Part shown: positions 1,650-61,106 of the stretch, piece after piece
Numbering within the stretch: position 1 is the stretch's first letter
Layout of the letters: each line of letters starts with the position of its first letter
DNA from: Paracyclopina nana
Lineage: Eukaryota > Arthropoda > Copepoda > Cyclopoida > Cyclopettidae
Reading direction: 5' to 3'
Length of the DNA: 64,000 nt
Assembly: GCA_019096065.1 (NCBI GenBank)
Contig: JAGUCH010000003.1
Span: 4,216,001-4,280,000 of the forward strand
The notes under the pieces: model-generated
What the model saw: only the letters and a program-made list of their open reading frames with translations
Databases searched by the model: none
What the model was told of the DNA's origin: nothing
Program-made: the position numbers and the translations under genes

Positions 1650-3985
<2,336 letters not shown>

Positions 3986-25832: not shown

Positions 25833-26010
25833 AATTCACATGAAATGCAATTTAAAAGTCTATTTTATTGCTCTCAAACCACTGGATGCTAGCTGATGAG
25901 AGCCAGTGATACATAGCATAAAAACCGAGCAGCATTTTCTAGGGCACGGGGCAGCCCGGTAACTTCATTAAAACACTCGAAAATCGTATTACAGTATATA
26001 AAATTGTATA

Positions 26011-26193
26011 TTTTGAGCTGGGGCACGTAAAATTGGGTCATTAAATAGCTGACCTCGGATTTTAAAATGGAAAAACACTCGTACAATTACAGCCCTCGCA
26101 GGCTCGGGCTAGTAAAGCTGTACTCGAGTTTTCCCATTTTAAAATCCTCGCTCAGCTATTTAATGACCCTACTTTACGTGCCCCAGCTCAAAA
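26011..26193. repeat. Near-perfect hairpin (foldback element)
   Basis: Two arms of about 84 bp are inverse complements with few mismatches. The left begins TTTTGAGCTGGGGCACGTAA and the right ends TTACGTGCCCCAGCTCAAAA. A short C/G-rich centre (AGCCCTCGCAGGCTCGGGCT) also pairs with itself. It could be a foldback MITE, or a hairpin RNA locus if transcribed. The sequence does not show which. Confidence 0.8.
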
Positions 26194-27288
26194 TAAATAA
26201 CTAAATAATTGCTCTTGCTGATTTTATTTTTCAAAGAGTAAACATATGATATTCATAGCTCTGTACTTTAATAATAATACAAAGGCTTGCCGCAGATGCA
26301 AGACCTGGATCCAATAATAATTTGGATTGCCACGAGTCATATAATTTTTCTAGTAGGAAAAAGAATATTTATTTTTGTTTGCCTTTACAATATATGAGAC
26401 AGTAAGAGTGCTTGAACACATTCCAGTAGAGATAAGGCCTGATTTATTGGCATTTGAGCAAAACAGCTTTCACTTTATTTTGGGGTCGTGGAACTTTCTG
26501 CTATGTCAGCCATAAAGGAAACTTTTCTATTTAGGGCACTAGGCAATTATTTTATAAGTGGGTGCAAACTTCTTTTAACCATGGCTGAAAAGAATGATTT
26601 CATTTTTGGCCTTATGTATGTTGGAATAATGAATGACTAAAACAGCAATTTCCCTTATTTCAGCGAGATGAAAATTTGACTTGCTTCCTTTGTATGGCAA
26701 CATGCAAGAAAAATTTTTGAAGGACCTTTTCCCACAGAAGGTGATCACTGAATAATTACGTTGCGGTCAGGATCTCTCTGACCTTAATGAGAGTAACAAA
26801 GATTCCTGCTAGAGAAAATTAGCACTTCTGGCATTTTTACTTCATCACTTAACTGAATGAAGTAGATGGTTGGATTGCGACTAGAAAAGTCAAGTAGAGA
26901 TTTTCCTATCGTTATTTTTTAAAATTCTTACAAGGCTGAGTGGTTCTGTGACTGGAAAATGCAATGTTCCATTTATCATCGTAAAATATTTACTGCGTAA
27001 ATAAATCATGAAAAAGCTATGGCATTTCTAAACTTTTTGAACACTTTCCTAAGAGACTCATGATTTTCAAAGCTTCCTCCTTGATTTGATTTTTTTCATG
27101 TGCTATGAAGTGAAGAGAAGCGTGTTCAGTGTCCGTAGGTAATTTCCTAAAGAGCTCTTAATTTAGGCAACTCTCAAACAACCACGAAAATACTACATCA
27201 CTTCTTCATGCTGCTGTTAATATTTATTCAAGAATTCAGCCCTTCACCAAACTAATTGCCCATGATTGATTTTTTATCCTTATTCCCA
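26194..27288. other. Intergenic, no supported gene
   Basis: A/T-rich DNA downstream of the metalloprotease gene. It presumably contains that gene's 3' UTR near 27289. No coding frame or clear repeat is seen. Confidence 0.5.
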
Positions 27289-29624
27289 TCATTTGTGCGT
27301 AAGCTCAGGGTAAAAAGGATCCTTGCATTGGCAAACCTGAAGAGTAAAAAAGTTAGGCTATCTGTTGTGAAGGTATGTGAAAGCAATTACATTGCAGAAA
27401 GATGCCCATCCAGAAGTCTTCTTTTCGCAGCAATCTCCTCCATCATACGCACAGGCTTCATTGTTCATGAAGTCATCACAATACCTGTCTCCCCACCAGC
27501 TTTTGATCAAAGAGGGGCAGGATTGCTTACACTGGCAAACCTATTGCATTGAAATTCGAATTAAACCCCCAGCTATGGAAACCAACGCTACATACAGTGC
27601 AGAAGTATTTCCAGGAGCTCTTCTTGCTGAAGCAGCAATCTCCACCATCAAATCCACATTCTGGGGTGTTCATGAAGTCATCACACCAGCCATCGCCCCA
27701 CCAACTTTTGATAAGACCCGGACAAGTGATGGGCGCCTTAGTTGTGGTGGTTGTGGTGGTCGTGGACTCTTTGCATTGACATTGCTATAGAATTAATCCT
27801 ATGCTGAATGCTATGAACGAAGCTTTAAATAAAAACAGTTGATTACGCTGCAGAAAATATTCCAATTCTGGTTGTTGTGTGGTGGGCAGCAATCACCTCC
27901 GTCGAAGCCACATTCAGGGGTATTTTGGAAGTCATCACAATAGTTGTCACCCCACCAACTTTGGACTTTGTTTGGACAGCTTCCAGTTGTTGTTGCATTG
28001 GTGACCGTTGCAGTGGTTGTAGAATTTGCTGCTGTAGTAGTTGTTGTTGTTGTTGTTGTTGTAGTAGTAGTAGTAGTAGTAGTTGTTGTTGTAGTAGTAG
28101 TAGTTGTTGTTGTTGTTGTAGTAGTTGTTGTTGTCGTTGTGGCAACATCTCCACAAACAGTTGGATCGTCTAAAAATTAGAAAAAATCTACTTTTTTGTG
28201 CGTCCTCGAAGTATCTTTAACCAAATATGTACATACTTGTGGCACACCATGAAATGGATGAATAAGTCGCTGCGTACGTCAACACTTGGTTGTAATGTTC
28301 CAAAAAATCACTTGCACTGCATGTTGACCACTTGTCGGGTGGACTACCATAACTCATTATTCCAGTACCATCACAGCCTGTGCCGCTATGCTTAGAATCA
28401 AAATCATGGTACATCCCTAGATTATGGCCAATCTCGTGGGCAGCCACCTTTGATTTGAATAGGATACTGAAGCACATTTGCATTGCGCATAATTTGCTTT
28501 ACTCACGCGCGCAGTCCCAATGACTGTGTTCCTCAACTCATTGATGCTGCAAGAATAGGACTTCCAGATGCAGATCGTGCCAACCCATCCTAGTCCAACT
28601 GTGCCATAGTATTCCGGATCTTTGCAAAGGTACACAAATATGTCAGCATTCGAAGGGCTGGCTGCAGTGACGCTATTGATGTCGCCCACTGAGAGTGAAA
28701 TATTGTCGGCTTTCCAGGTTTTTCCACTATGATAGGTAACATCATCTACCCTCTTACAAGAGCATTAATTTCTGTTAAAAGTTTCAAAGGTAGACGAATT
28801 TTACTTGTAGGCCAATTTTAGTGCCCAAAGACGAGTCACAGTAGAAAGTTTGCATGTGCACCATCATAGCATCAACGTAGGTGGTGATTGAAGCTGAATT
28901 TCCGCTGAATTCAGCATTGAAAGTATCATCATAGCCAAACTGAAGATTGTATTTTTTATGTAGTACATGGACAAAATAAAAATAGGCACGATTACCTTAA
29001 CTTCCATCACTCCTTGTGGAATACTAGTTGCTCTGCTTGCAGGGATTTTTGCAGAAGAACTAGATAAATCAATTGGTACTGTAAGGTAATCCTCCTCCAA
29101 AGTGATCCCTTCAGTTCTTGCCAGTCCACTCTACGGATTGTAGTTTACCTTGCTAGATGTTTCATAACATCATTAACCAAATACCTTGAATTCGTCTTCA
29201 ATCATAAAGACATCTCCGGATGTTGTCAAAACGTATCCACTGGAGCCTTCGCTGTGCTCGCTGTTGATGGTGAAGTACATGTCCTCAGAGCCATAGCATC
29301 CTGAAACTCCCACACAAGCAGAGGGCTCATTTTTGAGATGCCCAAAAAGGTTGCAAGTGATGCCTCTCTCCTGTTTTGCCTTTGCTGTTGGGTAAAAGTA
29401 GTCAAGGACTAGAGAGTCAGCATGTCCATCGGGGAAGACAATGTCAATGTCCGGAATCAAAGACCTACTCGACTCTCTCACAGTGATCTGGAGCTTGCCT
29501 AAAGATGCATTAATTCAGAAAATTATCAGAGATGCTTTTATTTTTGAGAATATAGATGTAGCATACTAGGCTGATTTGGCATGGCCGAGGCCAAGGAAAT
29601 GCAAAGCAGCGCTAGGGCAATCAT
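27289..29624 (-). CDS. Secreted zinc metalloprotease with three Lin-12/Notch repeats
   Basis: Ten exons: 29567-29624, 29185-29498, 28996-29130, 28805-28939, 28507-28752, 28237-28447, 27847-28169, 27596-27784, 27391-27540 and 27289-27336. They join in frame to 602 residues. A signal peptide (MIALALLCISLASA) is followed by a prodomain-like region and a metzincin catalytic domain: zinc site HEIGHNLGMYHD and downstream Met-turn GIMSYG, as in M12B/ADAM-type enzymes. A poly-Thr mucin-like linker from a trinucleotide repeat follows. Then come three Lin-12/Notch-type modules of the pattern SWWGDxxCDDFxNxxxCxxDGGDCC, joined by short VCQCK-type links; the third has AYDGGDCC. There is no transmembrane segment, so the product is probably an extracellular protease. 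No disintegrin domain is seen. LNR expansion with proteases is known in the copepod Oithona nana. Confidence 0.88.
28030..28140. repeat. Coding (GTT/GTA)n repeat, poly-Thr linker
   Basis: About 110 bp of GTT and GTA triplets on the + strand, read as ACA/ACT/ACC-type Thr codons on the - strand within exon 7 of the metalloprotease gene. It encodes an O-glycosylation-prone linker between the catalytic domain and the first LNR. Length polymorphism is likely. Confidence 0.9.
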
Positions 29625-30305
29625 CTTGGTGATTTAGCTCTGACTGAACCTTGCTCCTGTTGATCAGCCAATTTATATCCAATATTTCGCAAGTGTGAAA
29701 AACACTCTCATCTCTTTTAAAAGCTTTTTTTGCTGACATTAATTTTGTATGAAGGTAGCCTAATGGAGCTTGAAAGCTGCAGAAAATTGATCTCGAGACT
29801 GGTTAATCCCCAACAGATATCATTTTCGGCAGTTCACAAAATCGTGATTCAAATTCTATCACAATGTTTAATGATAATTGCAGAAAACGGCCATCACCAC
29901 CAAACGAATGAAAATTGCCTTCAGGTGTTAGAGAAGAATTTCTGCGATGAAGGTGCTAATTTAGCGAGTGAGTTTAGAAAGCTTTTTTAAATGACATGAT
30001 GCTTTTAGCGACTCTCAAAGGGAGTTTTTTTGCACACTTTCTGTATAACAATTATCCTTCTCTGTCTCTCACCTTTTTCGAAACTTCATATCAAGCTTTA
30101 CATCATCGAACAAATGACAAAAAGAGTTCATGGAACAAAGAATATAAGGAATGCATTTCATTTACTTCCAATGATGCTTTTCTTTCGACTATAGAATAAC
30201 TAAAAAGTAAGCAAGAGTAAACGGCGGAGTGAAGGTTGATGATGACAACTTATTATAAATGATATAGGAGCATATTAATTTGCTTTTCTTCTGCATGAAT
30301 GAGAT
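29625..30305. other. Intergenic: metalloprotease promoter and SNX3 3' UTR
   Basis: About 680 bp. A TATA-like TTTATATCC on the - strand near 29675 lies about 50 bp upstream of the metalloprotease start codon, at a plausible distance. Open frames at 29730-29990 and 29996-30199 (+) show no domain. Confidence 0.45.
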
Positions 30306-31212
30306 TCACGTGTTACGAATCTTTCCAGGGACGTAATTGCGGTCAATGTTGGGCTCTTGCAGAAACATGTGTAGACATTTTTCGTTTTGAGCCAATGGGT
30401 GTCCAGCAATCCTTCAAAGAAAACAATACAGATTAAAAGTGGCTTCTTTTACATAGTTATTGCTGTTACTTGTTGATGAAGCTCTCCAGGCCAGATCGCC
30501 TTTCTTCAATGAAGCCCTCTTCATAAATGCCATCATCTGAGCGAAATGGAAGCTGCCTTTTCAAGGCTTTGCTTGGCAAGGGCGGAACCACAATTTTGCT
30601 GTCTCTCTCTAGCTCATTTCTGAGCCACTCGAAATCGCTGAACCTTCTGCGAACGCTCGACTCTTTCACCCGAAACACTGGCAAATTTGTCTGCAATCAA
30701 AATCAACCATACAATTTTGGAGCCAAGTCGTGCCTTTCAGTTTACAGAACTCATTACAAAGTTCACAAATTACAAGTATTGCAACTAAGATAATCATCGA
30801 AAAGAGCATCAAGCTTGGCAAAACACATCAATATAACCAGACGATGATCTTCCTCTAGTGGTTAACAGGAATTAACGCATAAAAGTCAATATAAATTCAT
30901 GTCGATTAAAAGATTAAACATACGTTAAGTAAGCTTAAAAAGAGATGGGAAATGGAAAGATTGATCTAGCTAACTAAGAAAGAATAATCTCATAAGAGCC
31001 TGAATTGTAATGAGATACCGAATGGTGACAGGTAAACAAAATGAGCTCAGTACCTTCATGCGGACTTCATAGTCTGTGTAGCGCTTATTGCCAATGCCGT
31101 GAGTGATTGGGTTGATCACGTCAATCTCGAGAAAGTTGGCCGGGGCTGCATAAGCGTCGTCCAACGTCTGCTTCTTGCTTATGAGCCGCTTCGTAGCGTC
31201 CTCGCTTGCCAT
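30306..31212 (-). CDS. SNX3: Sorting nexin 3
   Basis: An endosomal PX-domain protein that binds PI3P and works with retromer, for example in Wntless recycling. Exons 31054-31212, 30470-30690 and 30306-30411 join in frame to 161 residues (162 in human). Visible family sequence: NFLEIDVINPITHG, YTDYEVRMKTNLPVF, the PX core RRRFSDFEWLRNELERDSKI, the PPLP motif as VVPPLPSKALKRQLPF, then FIEERRSGLESFINKIAGHP and the C-terminal NYVPGKIRNT. Residues for PI3P binding (RRRFSDF and the Lys/Arg after PPLP) are present. Both introns fall at codon positions that restore the family sequence. Confidence 0.97.
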
Positions 31213-31603
31213 GCTTGACTCAATTATAACCCAACAACCTTCAAAAGTCTAACCAGGCTTGAATATCAGCCTAATGTTAACAAAAATTCTCCCCAGACTC
31301 AAAAAGACTTAAGAGACTTGAGAGGCTTCAGCTGACAGAAAAATTTCCTCTTTTGAAGACGCATCGAAAAGAGTCAAGCCAGAATATATAATGACTCATT
31401 TTCGTAATTTAATTTCAGAAGTCAAATTTTTTCAGTCTTGAGTACTCGTGATGGTTTTTGTCGATATTGCATGCTTAACTTAATTAATGAAAGACTAAAG
31501 ATAATTGAAACACATCTAATTAAAAAGTTCATAGAGCCTTAGAAAAGTTCAAGCAGGTTTTTATAGTAAACACCCATTTACACCGAAAAAAGTTATTTTT
31601 TTA

Positions 31604-32169: not shown

Positions 32170-33810
32170 TTACATTCCATTATAAATCTGAATGCTTCCA
32201 TACGCCTTTTGCTCAGCTTCTATGACCAACCGGTTCAGTTCACTGGGAGTGTACCCGATGAGCTGCTTGAGGTTACATACAAACTTGTAGACAAACCGCT
32301 TGCCATGGACCTTGCAAATCATGTCTCCATCGTAGTAATACCTGAGTGCTCTGCTCAACTTTTCATAGTTCATATTGGGCTTGTTTTTCCGGGTGCCCCA
32401 AAGTTGCGCAACAGTCTCCGGATTCTCCAGCTTGAACTCACCTTCATCGCCAATCCAATGGATGACATCTCTGTGGTTTTTGTCTGTGAGTAGCTCTAAC
32501 AGAAATTGCCAAAGTTGAACTTGGCCATTGTTGCCAGTCCTGTTGCCAGGGGCTGACTCGGACATGACAGAAAACTTGGCTGATCCCAACACAGTCGGTG
32601 CTTTCTTCAGCGTTTTCCTTTCAGAGATAGAGCTGTTCATTTTCACTGAGGACACTACAACTTGAGGCTGCTTTGCTTCCACCTTTTGCACCACAGCCAC
32701 AAACTTACACTTTTTCAGCAGTTCCAAATGAGTCCAAAGGATGTCACCAGGATCGGTGAAGATTTTCGACTTGAACTCATCGTGCGTCATCGAACAAAGG
32801 TCTTGTCCATCCATCATGTCCCAATTGCTGGCGTTGATCACAGACTCTGGAAAGGCGTTTTGGGCCCAATTTAACCAATGAGCCACATGCAATCGTTCCC
32901 ACTTGAGAGGATCTCGTGGGAAACTCAGTCGATTTTGCTCCTCTCTGTATTCTGTTGAAACCACCCACCTAGTGGCCCCTTTGTCTTCACTTTCGGCTAC
33001 TTTTCTGTGCACTTTAAATGGCGGAGTATCCGCAGCACTTTCAGCTTTCACTTTGGGCGTTTTTTCCTCCTCCTCAATGCTGTCTTCGGGCTTCAGTACG
33101 TCAACTATGTTGATTTTACCCTCCGATATTTCCATCTTGATTTGGACCAAACCTTCGCCTTGGACACACTGGTCCACCAACGTCATTTCATCTGTCAGCT
33201 TTTGGGAATCTTGCAGCCAAAAGCTGAAGTTTTTCACGCTAAAACCCATCTTCTTGTCCAACTTTTTCTTTAGTGAGCCCAAGGGCTCGCGGATGTCAAT
33301 GAGCTCTGATACGACTTTGACATCGAAATCGTTGTCACCATCCACGTCCACTTCGATATCTTCGTCGTCATCATCGTCATCGTCCTCATCGTCAAAGCTG
33401 TCACTGGAGAGGTCCAGGGAACTTCCAGTCAACCTGAACTGGCCTTCATCAACTACAGGAATGACTTCCTCCTGTGAAAAAAAGGTTCTTAAGTTAGGTC
33501 CTTTCCATGTGCTCACTTTTGGTTTTTAGGTACAAAAAAATGTACCACGCAAGACCGTTTTTGCAAGACCGTTTTCATTGTTTATTTACGTTTTTGTTTA
33601 CTTTTTGCGTACAGGATGTTTACTTATTTGTTTACTTCTTTTGCTACTTGCCAAAGACCAATTTTTTTGTACCATCAAAAACCGTTTTTCAGTTTTATTT
33701 TTTGTATAAGCACATGGAAGGGTCCTTAATGTATGCAGTGCGAAGACTATAAAAATGTTGCTTACCTGTCCGAGCAAGTCGCCTAGCATAAAATCAGAAG
33801 GAATCGACAT
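32170..33810 (-). CDS. GABPA: GA-binding protein alpha (ETS transcription factor)
   Basis: DNA-binding subunit of GABP/NRF-2, a nuclear activator of housekeeping and mitochondrial genes through GGAA sites. Exons 33766-33810 and 32170-33471 join in frame to 448 residues (454 in human). Domains in order: an acidic stretch (residues ~40-60); the ubiquitin-like OST domain ([20 protein letters not shown]); a Pointed/SAM domain ([30 protein letters not shown]); and a C-terminal ETS domain ([51 protein letters not shown]). The two DNA-contacting Arg of the recognition helix (SRALRYYY) are present. The single intron carries a Harbinger-like MITE. The gene is divergent from the mitochondrial gene DLAT, 1.17 kb away. 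Confidence 0.97.
33497..33725. mobile_element. PIF/Harbinger-like MITE in the GABPA intron
   Basis: A 229-bp element with inverted ends GGTCCTTTCCATGTGCT and AGCACATGGAAGGGTCC, flanked by TTA at 33494-33496 and 33726-33728. The TTA duplication and GGNCC-type ends fit PIF/Harbinger. Its ends resemble those of the element at 34194-34583. It makes up most of the 294-bp GABPA intron. Confidence 0.75.
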
Positions 33811-34583: not shown

Positions 34584-34984
34584 TTACAAGAATTTGAGAA
34601 AGATTGGACTATCACTGCATTAAAGAGGAGTCGTTAAATAATTTCTGAGCAAATATTTCTGCAACCACTTTTCATTTCGCGATATGTTACATTTTTGTTG
34701 TGAATTGTGATTAATAAGATAGACTCTTCAGGGCCGAGCAATAATATCAAAGGCACATTTGCTAAAAACGTATGAGTTTTCCAAGGATGTTTTGCAAATC
34801 ATTTGTCTCACTCTTAAACGCGTCTAGACATAATTTAGAGTATTGATCCATTAAAATGAAGATTATTCATGAAATTGTGCTGGATTTATTCTATCTTCTA
34901 CAATTTTATGTAGTTCCGGCTTAGATTTCGATATTTCTGACTTCCATCTTGCTTTTGAAAGCAGACTAGCTCAAGTCTGTCAAG

Positions 34985-36580
34985 ATGCTTAGCAGGCAAG
35001 TTCAAGGGGCCTCAGCGCTATGTCGAGTGATCAGCCGAGCCCCAATGCTGGGCATGGCTTCTTCCCAAGTGAATTTTGCGGCCAAAAAGTCCGTGTCAAC
35101 CTTGCACACTCAACCGGTAAGCGTCATTGATAATTTATGCCAAGCACCATTCGATAAGTCTATTTCCATTCTAAAGGTCAAGGTAAACTTGAAGAGCCTG
35201 GCTTCTTCTTCGATAAGGTTCATGTCGAGTGGGGATAGTCTGCCAGCTCATGAGCTGGTCAAGCTGCCTGCCTTATCTCCCACAATGGAGCAAGGCACAA
35301 TTGTGACTTGGGAAAAGAAGGTTGGCGATCAGTTGTCTGAGGGAGACTTGCTCTGTGAGATTGAAACCGACAAGGCTACCATGGGTTTTGAGACACCCGA
35401 AGAGGGCTATCTGGCCAAGGTTCTCATTCCCGCTGGAACTAAGGATATTCCAATTGGCAAGCCACTTTGCATCATTGTACAAAACGAGGAGGACATTGCC
35501 AAGTTTGCCAACTATGATCCTGTCAAAGATGGAGCTGTCGAACAGCCCTCCAAGCCGAAAGATGCTCCTCCAAAACCCAAAGTTGAGCAGCCAGCACCTG
35601 CTGTCACGCCCGTCGCCGCAGCACCTATTCCAAAAGCTGCCCCTCAAGTCAAGGCACCTGCCGGTGGAGCAAGAGCTTTTGCTAGTCCCGCGGCAAAGAG
35701 ACTTGCCGCTGAAAAGGGAATCGACTTGAGCCAAGTATCACAAGGCAGTGGCATGGATGGCATGATCACTGCCAAAGACGTGGAAAAGATGAAAGTGGCA
35801 TCTGCGCCTGCATCTCCAGTGACAGCAACAGCCACAAGCGTCGCTCCCCCCGCATCTAAATTTGGTGGAATGCCTTCGCCCATGGGATCAGGACACACTG
35901 ATGCAGAATTGACAAACATGAGGAAGACCATAGCGAAGAGGCTCCAATCCTCAAAAAATACCATTCCTCACTACTATCTTACTGTGGAGTGTGAAGTTGA
36001 TAACTTGCTAAGTTTGAGGGGAGAGCTCAACACCCAATACAAAGATGAGGGTGTCAAGTTAAGTGTCAATGACTTCATCATCAAGGCCACTGCTTTAGCG
36101 TCAAGGCAAGTCCCCGCCTGCAACTCTGCCTGGATGGACACCTTCATTCGCGAGCACCACTCATGCGACGTGTCAGTTGCTGTTGACACTGGGTCCGGTC
36201 TCATAACTCCCATTGTGACATCAGCGGACGCCAAGGGCTTGGCTGAAATCTCCTCCAATGTTCGTGAGTTGGCTGCGAAGGCAAAAGAAGGCAAATTGCA
36301 GCCGCAGGAGTTTATGGGCGGCACCATCACAGTCTCGAACTTGGGAATGTTTGGCATTGCCCACTTCACTGCCATCATCAATCCACCCCAGTCCTGCATC
36401 TTGGCGGTTGGTGGGCCAAGGAAAAAGGTCCTTCCCTCTGGTGAATCCGGCTACAAAACAGTGAACGTGATGAGTGTGACCCTGTCATGTGATCATCGGG
36501 TAGTAGATGGAGCAGTAGGAGCTCAATGGCTCAAGCACTTTAAGCGATACATCGAGAAACCGACATCAATGCTTCTGTAA
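34985..36580 (+). CDS. DLAT: Pyruvate dehydrogenase E2, dihydrolipoyl acetyltransferase
   Basis: Core enzyme of the mitochondrial pyruvate dehydrogenase complex; transfers the acetyl group from lipoamide to CoA. Read as one frame it has 531 residues. There is a basic mitochondrial presequence ([18 protein letters not shown]). One lipoyl domain follows at about residues 90-165 with the lipoylated Lys in [13 protein letters not shown]. Then a Pro/Ala-rich linker, the E1/E3-binding domain ([20 protein letters not shown]) and the catalytic domain ([20 protein letters not shown]) ending with the active-site motif [16 protein letters not shown]. Vertebrate E2 has two lipoyl domains; this has one. 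Bases 35117-35176 look like a 60-bp GT-AG intron without an in-frame stop. Splicing it out gives THTQPVKVNLKS-like sequence and a 511-residue protein. Confidence 0.95.
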
Positions 36581-58811: not shown

Positions 58812-60454
58812 TCAGCGAATGGTGTTGACAATGTCATCAATCTTCATAATTGAAACGACAGTTTCGGAGGCCAAGGTGATGGCACTGGTTGATACAAGAA
58901 GAGGCTGGACAACATTCTCGTCCAAAATGTTGGTAATTGTGCCCTTACGCACGTTGATGCCACTGTTTACTTCTCCCTGGGCATGCTTGTTCCTCAGCTC
59001 GGTGACTGTGGCAATAGGATTGAGACCAGCATTTTCAGCCAAGGTGTAGGGAATGACCTCGAGAGCCTCAGCAAAGGCTTTAAAGCAATACGCATCAGCC
59101 CCAACGAGGGTGTTGGCATAGTCAGTAAGCTTGAGGAAGATTTCCGTTTCTGAGGGGAGCAAAATCGTATTAGAGACATTCTTTCATTAAATTGTGATGA
59201 TCAAGTACCTGGGGCTCCTCCGCCTGCAATAATGAAGCGCTTCTTAACCAAGCAACGGATGACGCAGAGAGCATCATGGAGAGATCTGTCGGCTTCTTCC
59301 AACATCAACTTATTAGAGCCTCTCATCAGGATGCTCACAGTGCGGTTGGCCTTAGCAATGCCAGTGATCTTGACCACCTTGGAGCTGCCAGCTGGAATCT
59401 CTTCAACCAGTTGAGCGTCAGAAAGCTTATCAGCGGTGAAGTGATCCAAACTGGCAATGGGTGCACACCCAAGGGACTTGCAGACATGCTCAATGTCCTC
59501 CCTCTCAATGTCCTTAACTACCATGATTTTCATCTTGTCAAAGAAGTGAATGGCCAGATCTGAGAGGGCATCTCTGAGGATGGACTTTTGTACAAGCAGA
59601 ACGTTGCAACCAGCTTTCTTGATCTGCTTGACAATGTTCAGGATGTAGGCGCGCTCCTCCCTGAGGACTCGGTCCATCGCAGCATAATCAGACACGATGA
59701 CTTGATTATCCATGTCAGTTTTGGGGGGAGACACTTGGAACTGGATTAGACCAATTTTGGCCTTCTCCACCTTCTTCACATTTCCTGCAGCCCTCTCTTG
59801 AAACAAGAGGCCCTCAATTAGCTCAGTGTCATCCACGGTGCCTCCCAGCTTCTTGATCACCTTGATATCGTTAAGGTTGACGTTGTCAGCCCTGGTTGGG
59901 TCGATGACTTTGAGGACTGCGTCAACAGCAATGGGCGACAACTCAGAGCTATGCTGAGAGACGACCTTTGAATTTAAGCTAGTGTTAGCCGACTGCAAGA
60001 GCTTGTCTCGGTCAGACAAGTCCACCGGTATGGCCATGGCCGTCAAAATCTCCACAGACTTGGCGGCAGCGCGTTGAAAAGCCTCAGAAATGGTCGTTGG
60101 ATGGATGCCTTTTTTGAGAAGGCGATCAGCGGCCTCAAGGAGGCTGCCACACATCACCACAACGGAGGTCGTGCCATCGCCGGCCTCGACATCCTGAGCC
60201 TTGCTCAACTCGACCAACATTTTGGCAGCTGGGTGAATGACTTTCATCTGGTCCAAAATGGTAGCTCCATCGTTGGTGATAGTCACCTCTCCTTTGGGAT
60301 CTTGAATCATTTTGTCCATACCCTTGGGCCCGAGAGAAGTACGAATGGCATCAGACAAGGCTTTGGCCGCTTGAATGTTGGACTTGCGGATTTCCATAGG
60401 CTTTGACTTCTTTTGGGCCATAAGCCCGGAGCTTTTTCCATTGCTAGGTGCCAT
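58812..60454 (-). CDS. CCT4: T-complex protein 1 subunit delta (CCT4)
   Basis: Subunit of the cytosolic chaperonin TRiC/CCT, which folds actin, tubulin and other proteins. Exons 59209-60454 and 58812-59149 join in frame to 527 residues (539 in human). Motifs visible are [40 protein letters not shown], the ATP-binding [16 protein letters not shown] and, across the exon junction, the [13 protein letters not shown] motif. The apical domain has [20 protein letters not shown]. The last exon has [19 protein letters not shown] and ends [10 protein letters not shown] 59-bp intron splits the Glu codon after GGGAP. Divergent from CCDC134. Confidence 0.97.
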
Positions 60455-61106
60455 GCTTGAATCGATTTACTTTCCAGGCTCTTGGTTGCAGAAAATTATT
60501 TCAGAATGAAGCACGTTGTTAGGAGGTTTCAAAACGATCACGATATTTTATCTCCAAACACTGACGGAAAAAGTCACAAAGTAGCTACTGAGTATGCGTT
60601 AAAAAAGTTGGCGAAAAGTAACTCTGCCGTGGTAAACACCCGGCGACGGGACTAGAACATTCTAACACAAAGGCGTAACGAGTCAAGCAAAATTAAGCTC
60701 CAAGTGGAAACTAACTTCGACATTTTCAATCGGCTACCGAAAATCGTCAACTTTACTGACTATATCACGGATAGAAATATGTCAATAGCTCCTTTATTGA
60801 TTGAACTCTCGCATTTAAGAAGTTATTTTTGTGTGCGTTCCGTTTGGCCATATTTTGTGGTAAAAACTGTTGCGTCATCTTTTGATTCCAGCTTGACACG
60901 TGCTTGCTAAAATTTGTTTACCTAACCAAAGAAAAGCCTCGAACTGTCTCCTATTTTGAATTAGAGATTGTTCTTGAACTTCAATTGTCAACCCAAGCCA
61001 TAACAGGTAAATTTCTTTCGGATTTTCTTTTGATGTCAGCATAGTGACTTCGGACGGTCGTTGCTTACCTGTGTGCAACGTCAGCAGTTTGTGTTTTGGT
61101 AACATC
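60455..61106. promoter_or_regulatory. Divergent promoter region, CCT4 / CCDC134
   Basis: 652 bp between two divergent start codons, containing the promoters of CCT4 and of the CCDC134-NIFK pair. The sequence TTTTCTTTTGATGTCAG near 61020-61040 is an acceptor-like stretch before the CCDC134 leader, suggesting a 5' UTR intron. Confidence 0.45.

Follow-up and report, generated by a model that had tools for sequence, protein, structure and literature searches.

The window, by which we mean the whole 64,000-nucleotide stretch of DNA that was analysed (G000:C3:4216001-4280000), carries a gene that joins an M12B metalloprotease to three Lin-12/Notch repeat (LNR) modules. Judged from its sequence, the gene is confirmed as a real one, and the same domain order was found in four paralogs in the searched genome (91.95 Mb, 10 contigs). 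We consider it reasonably probable that the product is a secreted M12B proenzyme whose LNRs, carried on a threonine stalk, would target the enzyme to its substrates. The joining of LNRs to a metzincin is best known from PAPP-A; in the present genome at least five genes join them to an M12B enzyme, and natural enzyme sets of this kind, varying in tail, repeat number and stalk length, would allow a direct test of what LNRs do in proteases.

Gene model and protein domains

The LNR protease gene is interrupted by nine GT-AG introns of 52-68 bases each, and its stop codon ends at 27289. The encoded protein consists, in order, of a hydrophobic leader, a pro-region, an M12B catalytic domain with the zinc site HEIGHNLGMYHD, 36 threonines and three LNR modules. 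An earlier sequence-only reading had placed the gene at 27289..29624, which matched exactly on the minus strand, and its ten exons, domain order and enzyme class were borne out by in-frame splicing and Pfam. The features are as follows.

27289..29624, minus strand, whole coding gene of ten exons and 602 aa; in-frame GT-AG splicing, exons recovered by spliced self-alignment
29567..29624, minus strand, exon 1, probable signal peptide (residues 1-16 are hydrophobic, with a mean hydropathy of 2.16; assessed by eye)
28996..29498, minus strand, exons 2-3, pro-region; a stretch conserved by the paralogs, without a Pfam match
28237..28939, minus strand, exons 4-6, M12B catalytic domain (matches to Reprolysin_5 and to M12B structures)
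28403..28438, minus strand, zinc site, residues 300-311
28357-28355, minus strand, Met-turn Met, residue 327, in the same catalytic domain
28033..28140, minus strand, 36-threonine run, residues 377-412, within the 58 residues between Cys372 and Cys431
27773..27978, minus strand, LNR1 (body in exon 7, CxC tail in exon 8), from Pfam and alignment
27529..27724, minus strand, LNR2 (body in exon 8, CxC tail in exon 9), from Pfam and alignment
27325..27519, minus strand, LNR3 (body in exon 9, CxC tail in exon 10), from Pfam and alignment
29643..29677, minus strand, TATA-like (29677-29672) and initiator-like TCAGT (29647-29643) sequences, string match only, no chance control
27223..27228, minus strand, AATAAA, candidate polyadenylation signal 61 bases past the stop, string match only, no chance control

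Upstream of the gene, the TATA-like sequence starts 30 bases before the start of the initiator-like TCAGT. Both of the pro-regions scanned gave no Pfam family (0 in 2/2); the CNLFGHL stretch of the pro-region bears, by eye, some resemblance to an M12B propeptide.

The catalytic assignment was clear. Reprolysin_5 matched residues 170-332 (E 6.6e-16; 59.5 bits against a gathering score of 27), and among the 10 Pfam families found at E up to 1, four further reprolysin models passed their cut-offs and four other families fell below theirs. The closest solved structures for the catalytic part were M12B enzymes, 4j4m (1.1e-10) followed by several named snake-venom enzymes. The HExxHxxGxxHD zinc site and the Met-turn of M12B are both present, and the three His, the Glu and the Asp of the zinc site and the Met-turn Met were invariant in 9/9 M12B sequences of an alignment that contains the window's own; in three of the nine, all of ShK type, another residue stands in place of the second Gly of HExxHxxGxxHD. 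Like ADAM, ADAMTS and snake venom metalloproteinases, the window protein combines an M12B catalytic domain with a C-terminal tail of modules; unlike ADAM and ADAMTS, it is without disintegrin, cysteine-rich and thrombospondin type 1 domains, none of which was among the 10 Pfam families at E up to 1. At the same threshold no M43 catalytic domain matched the window protein. The M43 model was weak in paralog C8a (15.0 bits against a cut-off of 23), and partial matches above the cut-off occurred in two ShK-type genes, the genome's only two when 7/7 candidates were scored exon by exon. The possibility that the gene is a PAPP-A ortholog was ruled out, the catalytic class being M12B and not M43.

The Pfam Notch/LNR model matched three stretches (E 4.5e-6; 27.4 bits against a gathering score of 21.2), and the closest solved structures for the LNRs were GlcNAc-1-phosphotransferase (5.7e-7) and Notch3 (6.5e-4). 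An alignment was made of 17 modules picked from the matches, the first cysteine lying outside several of the matched stretches. Seven of the eight cysteines that the window gene has per module were invariant in this alignment, and so were, in 17/17 of the modules picked, the Asp preceding the second Cys and both Asp residues of DGGDC, which we take to be calcium ligands. Notch receptors likewise have three modules recognised as LNRs by Pfam; the window protein differs from them in having no membrane-spanning stretch by hydropathy (none after residue 30; best 19-residue mean 1.02) and in its cysteine pattern, since each window LNR, set against the Notch consensus, lacks two of the six cysteines and gains four others, the first of them the second Cys of DCC. 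The modules thereby have at least the four cysteines by which LNR and LNR-like domains were defined in Oithona nana. Fewer disulfides than in Notch, putative for the window modules, are also reported for the LNRs of PAPP-A (PMC9579167). According to the same paper, of 2022, PAPP-A, PAPP-A2 and the Notch receptors are the only proteins with LNRs, which contrasts with the GlcNAc-1-phosphotransferase match and with the many LNR proteins described in PMC8301441.

LNR1 was 84% identical to LNR1 of paralog C8b and 67% identical to LNR1 of C9, as against 65% to its own LNR2; LNR3 was 73% and 75% identical to LNR3 of C8b and of C4, respectively, as against 69% to its own LNR2. Because identity across paralogs exceeds that within the protein, these sequences suggest that LNR1 and LNR3 at least were probably distinct before these duplications. 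LNR2 shows no such separation (69% to its own LNR3, 67% to LNR2 of C8b). The LNR2 and LNR3 exons are of phase 0-0, so that modules can be gained or lost with the frame unbroken.

Same-order paralogs, constraint and the threonine stalk

Spliced alignment with the whole protein was carried out at five loci, chosen for best match or a visible LNR. The protease-LNR order was present in 5/5 (the window gene and four paralogs), with LNR counts of 3, 3, 2, 1 and 1. The paralogs, all located by spliced alignment, are as follows.

C8:6084.7-6087.1k, paralog C8b, three LNRs
C4:4991.2-4993.2k, paralog C4, two LNRs
C9:1039.1-1041.4k, paralog C9, one LNR
C8:2278.4-2280.0k, paralog C8a, one LNR

These loci bear on the possibility, foreseen in the sequence-only reading should the order be absent from every relative, that the model is mis-joined and runs a protease gene into a separate LNR gene beside it. 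LNR loci are abundant enough to make a chance neighbour conceivable, and what looks like a distinct LNR array does lie 4 kb downstream of an M12B gene at C7:3553k. Within the genome, however, the order recurs in all four paralogs, and C8a has 235 uninterrupted codons that cover the catalytic domain, a Thr run and the first part of the LNR, which begins inside the catalytic exon. This stretch gave an M12B match (3.6e-13) and alone no Notch match; once completed by the next exons, the LNR matched Notch at 2.9e-5. Nor is there anything out of the ordinary in the exon 6-7 intron of the window gene, which has 67 bases. An LNR lay within 2 kb of 4/34 M12B clusters against 0.15 expected, the four being paralogs and not independent; the intron-split LNR of C8a was missed by the genome searches, and the four become five with spliced alignment. 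The lists behind these figures, of 34 M12B clusters and 167 LNR entries, were compiled by hand; some modules were entered twice, and a few repeating or adjoining entries were omitted, each within 5 kb of a listed one. Chance joining is very unlikely because four paralogs share the order, one of them without a splice between the domains, and we find a mis-joined model hardly credible.

The idea that the C7:3553k protease itself runs into the LNR array 4 kb downstream was rejected, the frame with its Thr run and ShK-like tail ending at 3554198. The M12B gene at C7:373k showed no LNR at the loci examined (L049, L056).

That the window gene is a pseudogene or a non-functional duplicate is very improbable. 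Exon 2 of the closest paralog, C8b (L040, G000:C8:6086648-6086960), is out of frame in the assembly, a sign that the family is not free of decay or of assembly error; the window copy, on the other hand, is open across ten exons. Between it and C8b, the closest pair, pN/pS was 0.144/0.606 for the catalytic domain and 0.147/0.733 for the LNRs, and, as a plain count, pN was below pS in 22/22 of the listed domain comparisons with the window copy. Raw values are quoted given that dS was saturated in 10 of the 22, and only stretches longer than 15 codons were kept.

The threonine run had been described as a microsatellite linker, a term that undersells it as a stalk, Thr runs being kept in 3/4 paralogs with differing codons. 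In the window copy the 36 Thr codons comprise 20 ACA, 15 ACT and 1 ACG, and neighbouring codons differ at 10 places (switches); in C8b the 38 comprise 17 ACT, 14 ACC and 7 ACA, with 29 switches. C9 has runs of 7 and 14 and C8a one of 11, and no Thr run of four or more was found in C4. Slippage of different units may lie behind the lengths of the runs, but mere slippage is disfavoured by the mixed codons and the switches. Conservation of threonine while the codons differ points to selection on the protein as what keeps the stalk threonine.

Alternative tails and the role of the LNR modules

That other M12B genes carry other tails was partly established. Downstream of four of them (C7:3553k, 5367k and 5372k, and C2:2808k), on the same strand, lies a Thr run with a six-cysteine ShK-like stretch, separated from the protease by a short stop-containing gap, presumed to be an intron. 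The ShK Pfam scores were 19.9, 18.4 and 12.3 bits (the last from a trimmed piece) against a cut-off of 20.9, and the fourth stretch had no match. In these four M12B genes (L050-L053) the Thr runs are long in L051 and L052, and the ShK-like stretch is rich in Lys or Arg. It is possible that the ShK-tailed genes are a class sister to that of the LNR proteases. At C1:2267k one open frame holds both the protease and the PAN repeats after it, and at C1:2270k a PAN stretch adjoins an M12B gene in a different frame; both PAN tails scored above the Pfam PAN cut-off, and no Thr run was seen at these two genes.

We built a catalytic tree with 200 bootstrap trees. Its 16 rows were the five LNR genes together with 11 of the 29 M12B clusters outside that set. 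Tail labels were clustered on it (4 changes over five labels against a shuffled mean of 9.4), with ShK as one group and PAN as one group on a poorly supported backbone and C7:373k on a long branch. The LNR genes were not recovered as one clade (1% of the 200 bootstrap trees).

In the explanation that we favour, the M12B zinc protease would be secreted and made as a proenzyme kept latent by its pro-region. The threonine-rich stalk would probably be O-glycosylated and would carry at its end the three LNR-like modules, which may bind calcium; by binding a substrate, matrix or surface partner, the modules would keep the catalytic domain close to what it cleaves, much like the ancillary domains of ADAMTS enzymes. 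The gene belongs to a small family with one to three LNRs, beside M12B kin with apparent ShK-like or PAN tails. Of the two roles suggested for the LNRs from sequence, inhibition and substrate binding, we favour the second.

The inhibitory role would have the LNRs fold back on the catalytic domain as a calcium-held cap that a ligand, force or the loss of calcium would release, as in the Notch regulatory region. The three tandem LNRs of Notch are believed to shield a cleavage site (PMC9579167), and the presumed calcium ligands are conserved in the window modules. Yet 58 mostly-Thr residues lie between Cys372 and LNR1, the paralogs vary in LNR number and stalk length, related enzymes carry other tails, and a separate conserved pro-region exists, all of which make such a cap decidedly improbable. 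A targeting or exosite role is preferred to it because tails, repeat number and stalk length vary; stalks as uneven as these (36 Thr, 38 Thr, no run, two runs of 7 and 14 Thr, and 11 Thr) would be unsuited to a fixed inhibitory fit.

We also weighed the possibility that the LNRs serve mainly in dimerisation or in association with the genome's other LNR proteins. Partners would be plentiful, at least 150 LNR matches (150 of 343 candidates scored) and at least 71 LNR clusters having been found, and a trypsin-LNR protein of O. nana homodimerises in the yeast two-hybrid assay (PMC8301441). That result, however, concerns the trypsin type and not the metalloprotease class, and we rate this role as unlikely.

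Pappalysins offer a comparison for targeting by LNRs. PAPP-A and PAPP-A2 are metzincins with LNRs (three in PAPP-A), and these contact substrate or inhibitor; a C-terminal piece of PAPP-A that includes LNR3 binds IGFBP-4, and binding falls when calcium is absent (PMC9579167). The PAPP-A LNRs are required for IGFBP-4 and dispensable for IGFBP-5 (PMC9489782, PMC9579167). PAPP-A has the M43 and not the M12B catalytic class, with LNR1-2 inserted in the catalytic domain and LNR3 after SCR5 (PMC9579167), whereas all three window LNRs are C-terminal, after the Thr-rich linker. The analogy is partial, because IGFBP-5 needs no LNRs and two of the three PAPP-A LNRs lie inside the catalytic domain. More tentatively, and with somewhat less than even confidence, we propose lineage-specific targeted M12B proteases in which a Thr stalk bears an aiming tail swapped among LNR, ShK-like and PAN, a set that would have arisen independently of PAPP-A and expanded along with the LNR burst.

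The Oithona nana precedent and the window neighbourhood

The protease-LNR kind is already known from O. nana (PMC8301441), which was, among the matches listed, the only source bearing on an M12B-LNR fusion. That copepod was reported in 2021 to have 75 genes that together encode 178 domains of LNR or LNR-like type, including 12 trypsin-associated and eight metallopeptidase-associated proteins, as against at most eight LNR domains in four other copepods (PMC8301441). The LNR burst in the present genome resembles that of O. nana, as far as sequence matches tell: in both, LNRs are joined to a metallopeptidase, LNRs have multiplied genome-wide, and trypsins stand beside LNRs. Here some trypsin matches have LNR modules behind them on the same strand, no more than 0.7 kb away; instances are C4:654.5-656.1k and three successive ones at C2:793-801k. 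The available text of PMC8301441 leaves the metallopeptidase family, stalk and other tails of the O. nana set unnamed, and the two sets of genes are comparable by description. The architecture had been called unusual, which holds against Notch and PAPP-A and less so given five such genes here and eight in O. nana (PMC8301441). The appeal to O. nana as a precedent stood for protease-LNR proteins as such, and the tie to male differentiation did not, in the text available, extend to the metalloprotease class: the male link reported there is for LNR genes at large, the male-upregulated protease-LNR genes that are named are three trypsin types, and LNRs are not mentioned for three male-upregulated metalloproteinases (PMC8301441).

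Several neighbours of the LNR protease gene were noted in the window. Just upstream of it, at 30466-31248 on the minus strand, is a gene that by eye resembles a sorting nexin of the SNX3/SNX12 type. Long frames that look by eye like ordinary conserved genes would encode a poly(A)-binding protein (2086-3985), an ETS factor with a SAM domain (32170-33525), a PDH E2 subunit (34970-36580) and a CCT chaperonin subunit (59201-60466). A fold-back element at 25997-26207 has 89-base arms that are 84% complementary; 40/40 copies scored, the window's own included and being the best 40 of 596 candidates, were 98-100% identical, and the element is probably part of a recent MITE-like burst.
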